The position numbers and the translations under genes were made by a program. Positions 3,868 to 12,771 of a DNA stretch of 12,771 bases are shown in pieces. This DNA is from a bacterium (GTDB lineage Bacteria > Blakebacterota > Blakebacteria > Blakebacterales > Blakebacteraceae), in assembly GCA_025774205.1 (NCBI GenBank), contig JALGWK010000145.1, positions 1 through 12,771 of the forward strand, read 5' to 3'. How positions within the stretch are numbered: position 1 is the first letter of the stretch; each line of letters starts with the position of its first letter. Under the pieces are notes generated by a model. It had not been told where the DNA came from and made no database searches. It saw only the letters and a program-made list of their open reading frames with translations.

Positions 3868-4617
3868 ATGGCGCGGAAGAATCCAGCCTTCTCCGAAGAA
3901 GATCCCCTGGCGCGGGCGTCTCGGGTGCTCAAGATCATGGATCGGCTGGATGAGCGCCATCCTGACGCGGGCCTGGCGCGGGCGTCTCGGGTGCTCAAGA
4001 TCATGGATCGGCTGGATGAGCGCCATCCTGACGCGGGAGTTGCCCTCGAGTATCGTGATCCTCTGCAGCTGCTGGTGGCGACGATCCTGTCGGCCCAGTG
4101 CACCGATGAGCGGGTCAACCAGGTCACGCCGGTGCTTTTCGAACGTTTTCCGGATGCCGGCGCCTATGCCGCGGCGGGGGTGGAAGAGATCGAAGAGATC
4201 ATCCATTCCACAGGGTTCTTCCGCCAGAAAGCGAAGTCCATCAAGGGCGCAGCCGCGGTGATCATGGAACGATTCGCGGGTGAGGTCCCGCAGGAGATGG
4301 CTGATCTGACCTCGCTGCCGGGGATCGGCAGGAAGACCGCGAACGTGATCCGCGGCGGAGCCTGGGGTTTTCCCGGAATCACGGTGGATACCCATGTCAA
4401 ACGCCTGAGCGGTCGTCTGGGGATCACCGATCACACCGACCCGGTGAAGATCGAATATGATCTGAACGACCTGCTCCCTGAAGAACGGTGGTTCCGGTTC
4501 TCCAGCGCGTTGATCTTCCATGGTCGGCGGGTCTGCGGCGCCCGGAAGCCGGACTGCGCCGACTGCACCCTGACCGACCTCTGTCGGTACTATCTCGAGG
4601 AGTCTGATGGCATCTGA
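3868..4617 (+). CDS. nth: Endonuclease III with an internal 22-residue tandem duplication
   Basis: A base-excision repair DNA glycosylase and AP lyase for oxidised pyrimidines. From the ATG at 3868 it is 249 residues, longer than the usual 210-230. The helix-hairpin-helix LPGIGRKTANV carries the catalytic lysine (K156), VDTHV the catalytic aspartate (D174), and the [4Fe-4S] ligands follow as C-x6-C-x2-C-x5-C (C223, 230, 233, 239). Residues 14-35 and 36-57 are identical, from a perfect 66-bp duplication that repeats the first helix (RVLKIMDRLDERHPDAG). The catalytic core is otherwise complete. Start choice is uncertain: AGGAG at 3851-3855 lies 12 bases before this ATG, 3 before an ATG at 3859 and 9 before a TTG at 3865. 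The stop overlaps the next gene by 11 nt. Confidence 0.93.
   Translation: MARKNPAFSEEDPLARASRVLKIMDRLDERHPDAGLARASRVLKIMDRLDERHPDAGVALEYRDPLQLLVATILSAQCTDERVNQVTPVLFERFPDAGAYAAAGVEEIEEIIHSTGFFRQKAKSIKGAAAVIMERFAGEVPQEMADLTSLPGIGRKTANVIRGGAWGFPGITVDTHVKRLSGRLGITDHTDPVKIEYDLNDLLPEERWFRFSSALIFHGRRVCGARKPDCADCTLTDLCRYYLEESDGI
3906..4037 (+). repeat. Perfect 66-bp tandem duplication inside nth
   Basis: Bases 3906-3971 and 3972-4037 are identical over all 66 positions, and the match ends sharply on both sides (C versus G before, C versus A after). The length is a multiple of three, so the reading frame is kept and 22 residues are repeated. Zero divergence indicates a very recent duplication or an assembly error. 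Confidence 0.97.
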
Positions 4618-8853: not shown

Positions 8854-9630
8854 CTAGTAGTCGTCTTCGTCGTCATCAACGGGCCAGGCGGCCGGATTGG
8901 GCATCACACTCCCCGGTTCACGGAACTGTTTGCGGGCCGCGAGCGGATCGAGAGGTAGCCAGGCCTTCATCAGCCGGCGGGCTGCTTCGGTCCGCGCGTG
9001 TTTCGCCAGCCGGTGCATCGAGGCCACCTCGACGATCTTGCCCTCCGCCATCACGAGCACCCGATCAGCACCCAGACTACGGCAATGCCGTGAAGGGCCG
9101 TCATCTCCCTGAAAAGATCGACCAGCGAGATGGCAGCCTCAGGATCGAGGCCGGCCGTTGGTTCGTCGGCCAGTACGACCTTGGGAGAACCGGCGAGCGC
9201 CCTGGCGACGGCTGCCCGCCGCATCTGCCCACCGGAAAGGGCCGCGGGCCGCAGGTCCCACTGCATGTTGGAGAGGGTGACCGATCGGAGCAGTTTGACC
9301 GCTTTTGTCCGGGCCTCTGCCCGCTTGACACCGGCCAGGATCATCGGTTCACAGACCGACCGGAAGACCGACCAGCGCGGATCGAAGGTTGGAAGAGGGT
9401 GCTGGGGGAGCCAGCCGATCGAGTCGGGCGCCCGCAGGGTGCCGCGCTCGATGGGGAGCAGCCTGGCAATCGTCCGCAGGACCGTGGTCTTCCCCACCCC
9501 GCTCTCGCCCACGATCACCGCCCGCTCACCAGGGTAAGCTTAAAGAACAACCCTTCAGGACGGGCTGCGATTCCTCGCCGCCAGGTCGTACCTCAACCCC
9601 CCTCAGTTCGATGATCGCCGCGCCTCTCAT
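8854..9630 (-). pseudogene. ABC peptide/nickel importer ATPase (DppF/OppF-like), disrupted by two frame breaks
   Basis: The second ATPase of the importer, in three frames. Frame 1 (9630-9526) starts with an ATG overlapping the previous stop as ATGA and encodes MRGAAIIELRGVEV through LKGCSLSL, then stops. Frame 2 continues from about 9538, reading YPGERAVIVGESGVGKTT with Walker A, then Q-loop WLPQHPLPTF, signature LSGGQMRRA, Walker B VVLADEPTAGLD and VVWV, and stops at 9051. Frame 3 resumes at about 9069 with ADRVLVMAEGKIVEV and ends in an acidic tail DDDEDDY at 8854. The first break fits loss of about 2 nt. At the second, roughly 10 residues expected between VVWV and ADRVLVM, including the H-loop histidine, are missing along with a frame change. 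As written, it cannot make an active ATPase; real decay and assembly error are both possible. Confidence 0.82.
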
Positions 9631-10397
9631 ACCGGCATCGAGAGCCGGGCCGTGTGACGGACCAGCGGCAGAGGTTTATCACCGAAGGGATCGAGGAGAT
9701 CGAGCGGGGTACCGTCGGCGTCGATCCGCCCCTTCGCGATGTGGATCACCCGATCACTGAGTGCCGCGGCTATCCGCATGTCGTGGGTAATCCAGAGCAC
9801 GGCCGCCGAGGCGTGCTGGGCCAGCGAAGTGATAATCCGCCCCAGGATGAGAGCTCGTGGAGGATCGAGGTGGGCGGTCGGTTCGTCGGCCACGACGAGC
9901 ATCGGCCCGGGCAGGAAGGCGCTGATCACCGCCGCGCGCTGCAGCATCCCGCCGCTCATTTCATATGGGCACCGCCGGGACAGTTCCTTCCGGTCGGGCA
10001 GACCGGTCACCTTCAAAAGGCGGTCGAGCGGCTCCGCGACCTTCTTCCGGTCTTTGATCCCTTCCAGCATCTGCGGCAGAAGGGGCCGGGTGGGTGTGAA
10101 GGCCCTGGCCGGCTCCTGGGGGATCCACCTGACGCTGACGCCCCTGATTCCGGACCACGCCTGGAGGTTGCCGACCGGGACAGCGCTAGGCCCGAGGTGA
10201 ACGATACCCTTCGCTGAAGCTCCCATGAAGGGCAGGAGACCCGCCATGGCGTGTCCGAGGGTGCTCTTCCCCGTGCCGGTGCGACCGGTGACAGTGGTGA
10301 TCTTGCCCGGCTGGAGTTCCAGATGGGATATAGCCAGGATCGTTCCGGAGCGTCCGTAGCTTACTTCGAAGTCAGCGAGTACGATGCGCTTACTCAT
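9627..10397 (-). CDS. ABC peptide/nickel importer ATP-binding protein (DppD/OppD-like)
   Basis: A complete cytosolic ATPase of 256 residues that would power import with its DppF-like partner. Walker A is GRTGTGKST (38-46), Q-loop IPQEPARAF (92-100), signature YEMSGGMLQRA (145-155), Walker B MLVVADEPTAHLD (166-178) and H-loop ITHD (H205). The signature differs from canonical LSGGQ but keeps the SGG core. At 256 residues it lacks the 60-80 residue C-terminal extension typical of OppD/DppD. The start overlaps the permease stop by 8 nt, and its own stop overlaps the next ATPase gene by 4 nt. Since that partner is broken, this protein would have to act as a homodimer or with another subunit if the transporter is to work. 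Confidence 0.9.
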   Translation of the reverse strand: MSKRIVLADFEVSYGRSGTILAISHLELQPGKITTVTGRTGTGKSTLGHAMAGLLPFMGASAKGIVHLGPSAVPVGNLQAWSGIRGVSVRWIPQEPARAFTPTRPLLPQMLEGIKDRKKVAEPLDRLLKVTGLPDRKELSRRCPYEMSGGMLQRAAVISAFLPGPMLVVADEPTAHLDPPRALILGRIITSLAQHASAAVLWITHDMRIAAALSDRVIHIAKGRIDADGTPLDLLDPFGDKPLPLVRHTARLSMPV

Positions 10398-11292
10398 CGG
10401 TCACCAGCCTCCCCGGGGTGACCCGTTCCAGTTCCTCGGTAACTGAGTAGTCAGTCGACATCAGGCGATCGGCGGTGGTCGTGCGGTGCACGTTGAGCCT
10501 GCGGGCCAGGCGGTCGCCGGCAAGATGAAGGGATACCAGCCAGATAGCGAGTGTGAGTCCGGAGACCAGCAGGATCCAGGGCGCGGTCACCATCGCGACA
10601 CCATCGGCGATCAGGGTTCCCCACGAGGCCATCGGAGGCGCGACCCCGAGGCCGAGGAAGGAGAGGAAGGCTTCCTGCATCATGACGATGGGGAGCATCA
10701 GGGTGGCGTAGACAACGAGCGGTCCAGCGAGATTCGGGAGGAGATGGGCCCGGAGCACATAGAACCGGCTGCCTCCCATCATCCGCGAGGCCTCGAGGAA
10801 GGCTTCCCCGCGGAGGTCCCTTATACCGGCCCGGACCACCCGGGAGAGAGGCAGCCACTCGACCAGCCCCAGGACCACGAAAAGGAGGAGCAGGCTCCTC
10901 TCACCGGCCAGGCTCACCAGGAGGATGACCAGGAACATGTACGGCAGGGAGAACCCGACATCCACGGCGCGCATCATGACTTCGTCGGTCCGCGGTCCGG
11001 CCAGACCGGCGATGCCGCCCCAGATCGTGCCGATCACGAGCGCCAGGATGGTCGCTCCGATCCCGACCGCCATGGTGGTGCGCATTCCCTCGAGAAGACG
11101 GGCCGCCATGTCGCGACCGAGCGCGTCGGTTCCGAAGATGTGCCGGGTCGAAGGCGGCTGGGCTTCCGGGAGGACACTCCCGGCCAGCTCGGCCGGCAGT
11201 ATCTCCGCGCCGAGCAGGGCGACAACGGCTCCCCCCAGAAGGATGATGAGGAGGACAAGGTCGACCAGTGCCGTTCCCGGTCTGAGCTTCAT
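10390..11292 (-). CDS. ABC peptide/nickel importer permease (DppC/OppC-like)
   Basis: A 300-residue inner-membrane permease. I see an N-terminal membrane segment (about 9-29), the family motif HIFGTDALGRDMAARLLEG (51-69), and further segments at about 74-97, 112-129, 133-148, 190-210 and 238-257. The cytoplasmic EAA loop that contacts the ATPases is at about 163-190 (EAFLEASRMMGGSRFYVLRA). Downstream is LSFLGLGVAPPMASWGTL (210-227), which is strongly conserved in DppC. The ATG overlaps the stop of the other permease as ATGA, and its TAA overlaps the first ATPase by 8 nt. It looks intact. Whether the ligand is a peptide, nickel, opine or sugar cannot be told from this subunit. Confidence 0.93.
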   Translation of the reverse strand: MKLRPGTALVDLVLLIILLGGAVVALLGAEILPAELAGSVLPEAQPPSTRHIFGTDALGRDMAARLLEGMRTTMAVGIGATILALVIGTIWGGIAGLAGPRTDEVMMRAVDVGFSLPYMFLVILLVSLAGERSLLLLFVVLGLVEWLPLSRVVRAGIRDLRGEAFLEASRMMGGSRFYVLRAHLLPNLAGPLVVYATLMLPIVMMQEAFLSFLGLGVAPPMASWGTLIADGVAMVTAPWILLVSGLTLAIWLVSLHLAGDRLARRLNVHRTTTADRLMSTDYSVTEELERVTPGRLVTDE

Positions 11293-12476
11293 GATCTGCC
11301 CTTCCTCGATGGTTTCCCCTTCTTCGATGGTTTACCACTCTTCGATGGTGCGCCTCCCCTGGGTGGAACGCCTCTCTTCGCCGGCACACCTCTCTTCGGC
11401 GGCACACCCCTCTTCGGCGGTACACCTTTCTTCGATGGTTTGCCTTTGCCTGCTGCCTTCTCCGCGACCCGGGCTTTGCCAGCCGCCTTCTTCAGCACCT
11501 GCCGGCGGGCGCGCTCGGCCACTGTCCATTCGGCATGTTCCTGGCGCAGGCGGGGATCGAGACGGATATGGGCGAGGTCAGCCACGGTGTGGACAATAAG
11601 GAGGAGGAGGGCGTAGAGCAGGGTGGCCCCGATCACGATCGGGTAGTCGCGGGCGAGGGCACCGTCTATGAAGAAGCGGCCCATCCCGGGCAGGCTGAAG
11701 ATCTTTTCCACCACCACACTGCCGGTCACCAGTCCCGCCAGCATCGGCGCGATGTAGTTAAGGAGCAGGGGCAGTCCCCTCGGCGCGGCGTGTCTCCTCA
11801 CGACCTGCCAGGAGCTCAGCCCGCGGGAGCGTGCCGCGAGGCACTCGGGACGATCGATGCACTCGGAGAGGACATTGCGCCAGAAACGGGCCAGCGAGCC
11901 CCCCACCGGGAGACCGAGGGTCAGGGCCGGCAGGACCAGGTGGCCGGGAGAGCCCCAGAGCGCGGCCGGGAAGAGACCGAGGCCGACCGCCAGGACCCGG
12001 ATGAGGATCGGGCCGAGGACGAAGACCGGTACAGCGAGCGCGATGAGCGCCGCCAGGGAGACGGCCGGTCCTGCCCGGGGCCGGATGACGGCCAGAGTGC
12101 CGCCTCCCAGACCGAAGAGGAGAGCCAGGAAGAGTGCGGCGAGCCCGAGGATGAGGCTCGGTACGAAGCCATCAAGGAGCACCCGCATGGCCGGCCGTTC
12201 CGGCTGCTGAAAGGAAGGACCGAGCGAACCGGTAAGGAGATTCCCCCAGAAGCGGACGTACTGTGTGATCAGCGACCGGTCGAGCCCGTAACGAGCCTCG
12301 ATGTTGGCTCGCACTGCTTCCGGTACGGCCTGCTCGTTCCGGAATGGCCCGCCGGGAGCGGCCCGCGTCAGGATGAAGGTCAGGCTCACGATGACGAAGA
12401 GCGTGGGCAACGCCGTGAGAAGTCGCCGCCTGAGCAGGGGCGAGATGGGGGGAAGGAGGAAGCGGCCCTCGTTCAT
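11289..12476 (-). CDS. ABC peptide/nickel importer permease (DppB/OppB-like) with basic repeat tail
   Basis: A permease of 395 residues from its own ATG at 12476. The first membrane segment is LLTALPTLFVIVSLTFILTR (19-38), and others lie near 105-130, 138-165, 179-198, 240-258 and 279-302. The EAA loop is ECLAARSRGLSSWQVVRRHA (211-230), and VVVEKIFSLPGMGR (254-267) and ARDYPIVIGA are DppB hallmarks. The usual protein ends near LDPRLR (311). Here about 85 more residues follow, Ala/Lys-rich first and then eight hexapeptides of the GVPPKR/GKPSKK kind (345-395), a very basic tail expected in the cytoplasm. In the present sequence the frame is open upstream into the binding-protein gene because of a 22-bp duplication. 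An independent start at 12476 is still likely. Confidence 0.88.
   Translation of the reverse strand: MNEGRFLLPPISPLLRRRLLTALPTLFVIVSLTFILTRAAPGGPFRNEQAVPEAVRANIEARYGLDRSLITQYVRFWGNLLTGSLGPSFQQPERPAMRVLLDGFVPSLILGLAALFLALLFGLGGGTLAVIRPRAGPAVSLAALIALAVPVFVLGPILIRVLAVGLGLFPAALWGSPGHLVLPALTLGLPVGGSLARFWRNVLSECIDRPECLAARSRGLSSWQVVRRHAAPRGLPLLLNYIAPMLAGLVTGSVVVEKIFSLPGMGRFFIDGALARDYPIVIGATLLYALLLLIVHTVADLAHIRLDPRLRQEHAEWTVAERARRQVLKKAAGKARVAEKAAGKGKPSKKGVPPKRGVPPKRGVPAKRGVPPRGGAPSKSGKPSKKGKPSRKGRS
11293..11445 (-). repeat. Degenerate 18-bp repeat array coding for a Lys/Pro/Gly tail
   Basis: About eight and a half 18-base units in register (11311, 11329, 11347, 11365, 11383, 11401, 11419 and 11437 are unit starts) encode hexapeptides such as GVPPKR, GVPAKR, GAPSKS and GKPSKK at the permease C-terminus. 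Units differ mainly at a few positions, so the array is older than the two perfect duplications elsewhere in the window. Confidence 0.85.
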
Positions 12477-12771
12477 CGCTCGGGGGTCCAGTCGAGGTCG
12501 ATCCGGACTCCAGTCGAGGTCGATCCGGACGCCGGTCCAGCCGACCACGTCGAGCGGGTTGGGCCGCAGGCCGCTCACGTACGGCTTGATGAGCTGGACG
12601 TTGCTGCTCTGGAAGATCGGGATGATCGGGACATCGGCGAGCATCAGCGCTTCGGCTTCTGCCAGGAGCCGGTTCCGCGTCCCCCGATCGGATGATCGTC
12701 GGGCCTCCTCGAGAAGCCGGTCATAGCGGGTGTCGGTCCAGCCGGTCCAGTTGTTCGGGTTCCCCCTCTCG
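12477..12771 (-). CDS. Periplasmic substrate-binding protein (OppA/DppA-like), C-terminal part, stop lost
   Basis: The last 98 codons of a family 5 extracellular solute-binding protein, running in from the right edge. It reads NPNNWTGWTDTRYDRLLEEA, then EAEALMLADVPIIPIFQSSN and LIKPYVSGLRPNPLDV, all typical of the C-terminal lobe of OppA/DppA proteins. In an intact importer this lipoprotein or periplasmic protein captures the ligand. As sequenced it has no stop of its own: the frame passes through DWSPDRPRLDPRA into the permease. Removing one copy of the 22-bp repeat gives DLDWTPER and a TGA overlapping the permease ATG as ATGA, which matches the coupling of the other operon genes. The N-terminus and signal peptide are outside the window. 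Confidence 0.87.
12487..12530 (-). repeat. Perfect 22-bp tandem duplication at the binding-protein/permease junction
   Basis: Bases 12487-12508 and 12509-12530 are identical at all 22 positions, with mismatches immediately outside (G versus C on the left, T versus G on the right). Twenty-two is not a multiple of three, so the extra copy shifts the frame by one and removes the inferred original stop of the binding-protein gene. Confidence 0.97.

Follow-up and report, generated by a model that had tools for sequence, protein, structure and literature searches.

The end of the OppA-like gene in this stretch of DNA poses the question of whether a 22-bp tandem repeat records the fusion of a binding protein to its permease or an error in the assembled sequence. 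The window, meaning the whole stretch that was analysed, is one entire contig of 12,771 bp (G000:C420), so that the binding-protein gene runs off its end and is incomplete, and no more than 241 nt separate the repeat from that end. The genome that holds the window (G000) is a metagenome-assembled draft with a completeness of 85.9%, its 3.09 Mb spread over 527 contigs; G001 belongs to the same genus, and G002 and G003 to the same family. The features that bear on the question are the following.

12487 to 12508, no strand assigned: 22-bp repeat, copy one (TRF, identical 22-mers)
12509 to 12530, no strand assigned: 22-bp repeat, copy two (TRF, identical 22-mers)
12480 to 12770, minus strand: OppA/DppA-like binding protein, C-terminal part, the gene running past the contig edge; G002 and G003 homologues end in W.PPR and a stop
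11289 to 12476, minus strand: DppB/OppB-type permease, 395 aa from the ATG at 12476; BPD_transp_1; 72-74% identity to G003/G002
10390 to 11292, minus strand: DppC/OppC-like permease; ATGA overlap with the preceding gene
9627 to 10397, minus strand: OppD-like ATPase; 8-nt overlap with the preceding gene
8947 to 9630, minus strand: OppF-like ATPase, broken; ATGA overlap at its start; two lesions relative to G002/G003

The sequence-only reading described the repeat at 12487-12530 as perfect, and it is. With both copies kept, no stop interrupts the minus-strand frame between the contig edge at 12770 and position 11289 (493 aa), and, as that reading had also stated, the frame unites the C-terminal part of the binding protein with the DppB/OppB-type permease (Pfam PF00528, BPD_transp_1, and PF19300, BPD_transp_1_N), the binding-protein stop being lost. 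Once one copy is removed, the frame reads GVRIDLDWTPER followed by a stop (protein end GWTGVRIDLDWTPER-TGA), and the restored TGA overlaps the permease ATG, whose first base is 12476, in the predicted ATGA. The same overlap had been noticed at two other junctions of the operon, and we find it at OppB/OppC and at OppD/OppF; the 8-nt overlap at OppC/OppD reads ATGAGTAA. Chance is ruled out as a source of the repeat, since 200 shuffles of the window yielded no perfect tandem repeat with a period of 20-110.

The relatives indicate which form of the junction is the older. In both G002 and G003 the genes are separate and the binding protein stops at the homologous residue (WHPPR before the stop in one, WRPPR in the other), its last residues being GWAGLRVNLEWRPPR in G002 and GWAGVRVDTGWHPPR in G003; the fused form is absent from both. 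Because these proteins stop at the same position, the comparison supports the single-copy junction as the ancestral state, in line with the earlier proposal. The same-genus genome G001 had no match to the query and so offers no comparison at this junction. A stable natural fusion within the family is ruled out by the stop that G002 and G003 retain at the same residue. Further afield, an open reading frame of the SBP-DppB fusion type in G026:C45 (915-922 aa) covers residues 7-411 of the query without a stop and is likewise one open frame, but it differs from the window in being distant (30% identity) and in lacking a fresh duplication. Such binding protein/permease frames in distant bacteria mean that the fusion architecture is not in itself unprecedented.

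The BPD_transp_1 permeases and the gene order, read from the open reading frames and their homologues in G002 and G003, identify the operon as encoding a peptide ABC importer of the Opp/Dpp type. Like other Opp/Dpp operons, it carries a binding protein, two permeases and two ATPases in order, with overlapping start and stop codons; unlike them, it is broken at two places, the binding protein/permease junction and oppF. The C-terminal tail of the permease (window 11299-11434), missing from G002 and G003, is rich in lysine and proline and carries imperfect 18-bp repeats (KKGVPPKRGVPPKRG...). Relative to those two genomes, oppF lacks a net 31 nt at about 9069, and a small frameshift interrupts it near 9530-9535. 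Broken oppF on the same contig would suggest operon decay, and it can be read together with the presence of the repeat in the deposited sequence and the single-copy ancestral form: a real, recent 22-bp duplication would have inactivated the transporter operon, producing a mis-sorted read-through fusion and leaving the permease to internal initiation only. Were the duplication true, the fusion of transporter parts would have been recorded in the act. The evidence does not favour that, and we regard it as very unlikely, given that lesions of the same kind occur genome-wide, at a high rate and blind to frame, and reach the valS and dnaE orthologues, where a living cell could not tolerate them.

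The rate and frame-blindness emerge from a survey of 81 sampled G000 contigs (given L-numbers below), of which 72 were readable (477 kb, about 15% of the genome), in which perfect two-copy tandem duplications of period at least 20 were counted. There were 14, the window repeat among them, with periods of 21, 22, 22, 22, 24, 28, 35, 39, 45, 53, 66, 71, 81 and 104, three being exactly 22 bp. By the same count G001 had 3 in 348 kb, one of these 277 nt from a contig end, and the roughly 99 kb taken from G002 and G003 had 0; that G001 too has three speaks against an assembly error, and the difference in rate between G000 and G001 is, taken alone, modest (P=0.03). Periods divisible by three make up 6 of the 14, no excess over chance (P=0.31), and the seven non-triplet duplications other than the one in the window all interrupt or shift long reading frames, including those of NuoF, a DUF1846 protein, a PEP-utilising enzyme, a TonB-dependent receptor and an outer-membrane efflux protein; several, as in NuoF and DUF1846, split a single Pfam domain. 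Four other duplications could be set against G001 by DNA alignment, and all four are single-copy there, the offsets matching the duplication lengths (gaps of exactly 22, 22 and 24 nt and an overlap of exactly 71 nt).

Real slippage duplications usually occur at short repeats. Those of G000 do not, which is a further argument against a genuine duplication at this junction: the 14 sites have 6 extra matching bases in total, compared with 9.3 expected by chance, and at 12487-12530 the copy number is exactly 2.0, no matching base extends beyond the copies, and microhomology is thus absent. A lineage with an unusual mutational process, generating microhomology-free tandem duplications of at least about 22 bp together with small deletions, and with the binding protein and permease fused in a decaying genome, would be a very improbable account.

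Net losses accompany the duplications. When intact G001 proteins were aligned to the G000 contigs, the 61 kb of shared coding sequence contained about six distinct breaks in G000, whose net changes range between +22 and -125 nt (losses of 10-125 nt; the +22-nt break is already counted among the 14 duplications), and only one break was attributable to G001 instead. Net losses also break two genes named from Pfam PF00133 and PF07733 and from reading of the sequence, the orthologues of valS (net -106 nt; 81-85% identical to an 899-aa ORF of G001) and dnaE (net -31 nt; 85% identical to G001), each of which is split into two frames (L200, about 2829, G000:C340; L207, about 1306-1309, G000:C208) and intact in G001. 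A further DnaE-like protein, only distantly related (32% identical), is encoded on another contig, and a gyrA/parC-type topoisomerase is intact in G000. No cell could survive with valS broken; therefore at least the valS and dnaE breaks are errors, and the consensus as written cannot be that of a living genome. The duplications have the same properties as these errors. The proposal that a real mutation gave a read-through fusion is thus unsupported, since duplications and net deletions are scattered through the genome without regard to frame, in valS and dnaE as elsewhere.

The position of the duplications is also uneven. Nine of the 14 have a contig end within 1 kb (P=0.008), and for six, the window repeat included, it is within 400 nt (P=0.004). 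In L150 (4976-5053) and L161 (330-379) there is a perfect tandem duplication each, about 320-330 nt from the 114-nt overlapping end that the two contigs share. The two-copy form might alternatively derive from a minority strain or subpopulation and have been picked by the assembler, the junction being mixed or reversible. The bin does contain some strain variation: the end regions of L124 and L152 are near-identical, not identical. That account explains neither the excess of frame-blind duplications and the net losses in essential genes nor the closeness of the duplications to contig ends, and we give it next to no weight.

The contig ends also suggest which assembler was used. Four pairs of sampled contigs overlap at their ends by exactly 114 nt. 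The assemblers metaSPAdes and MEGAHIT use odd k. Contig-end overlaps equal maxK-1 in IDBA_UD and maxK in metaSPAdes and MEGAHIT (PMC10914622), so that an even overlap of 114 fits IDBA-UD with k=115. The shortest G000 contig seen is exactly 2,000 bp, and IDBA-UD runs at -mink 65 -maxk 115 that kept contigs of at least 2,000 bp have been published for other samples (PMC8204110). Local assembly errors are suspected to be prominent with IDBA-UD (PMC7111523). The errors described there resemble those proposed for G000 in that short pieces of the consensus are thought to have no reads behind them, in that an overlap between flanking pieces is kept twice and in that repeat numbers and protein-coding sequences are wrong. 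The twice-kept overlap of that description has Ns between the copies, whereas the window repeat has none, and a check for scaffold gaps found no internal N runs in the sampled G000 contigs. A keyword search of the literature for exactly such an artefact returned little besides these three papers.

We consider it highly probable that the fusion is not a real feature and that the 22-bp duplication arose as a local error when this fragmented genome was assembled from a metagenome. Many duplications and losses of the same kind, independent of frame and present even in essential genes, make this the best reading of the repeat, as a strong inference rather than proof. An assembler of the IDBA-UD type would extend or join contig ends, retaining the shared overlap twice at some joins, perhaps including 12487-12530, to give duplications, and losing sequence at others to give net deletions. 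In the real organism there is most likely a single copy, together with a separate binding protein ending in GVRIDLDWTPER, and with the permease most likely translated from the overlapping ATGA start. It counts against an assembly error that short reads should span the 44-bp array, so that inventing the repeat needs a specific assembler failure. Imperfect 22-bp duplications (21/22 matches) in L036 and L048 point the same way, as such copies would be seen had some of the duplications been genuine and begun to age. In L036 (5638-5681) the one-mismatch duplication splits a long ORF, which is 803 aa with one copy; this may be a real event of greater age, or else two strain variants may have been joined there.

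Gene fusions, pseudogenes and frameshifts apparent in the G000 draft should not be taken as biology, and the analysis shows a check that can be made without reads, from how many perfect tandem duplications there are, in what frames and how far from contig ends, and from whether essential genes are intact. The window contig contains a second case.

3906 to 4037, no strand assigned: perfect in-frame tandem duplication, 2 x 66 bp, early in nth, on the same contig as the 22-bp repeat
3868 to 4617, plus strand: endonuclease III gene (nth), which holds the 2 x 66 bp duplication

The 66-bp segment is represented once in the same-genus protein, and alignment to solved endonuclease III structures runs through the second copy only. 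This duplication is probably the same sort of assembly error.
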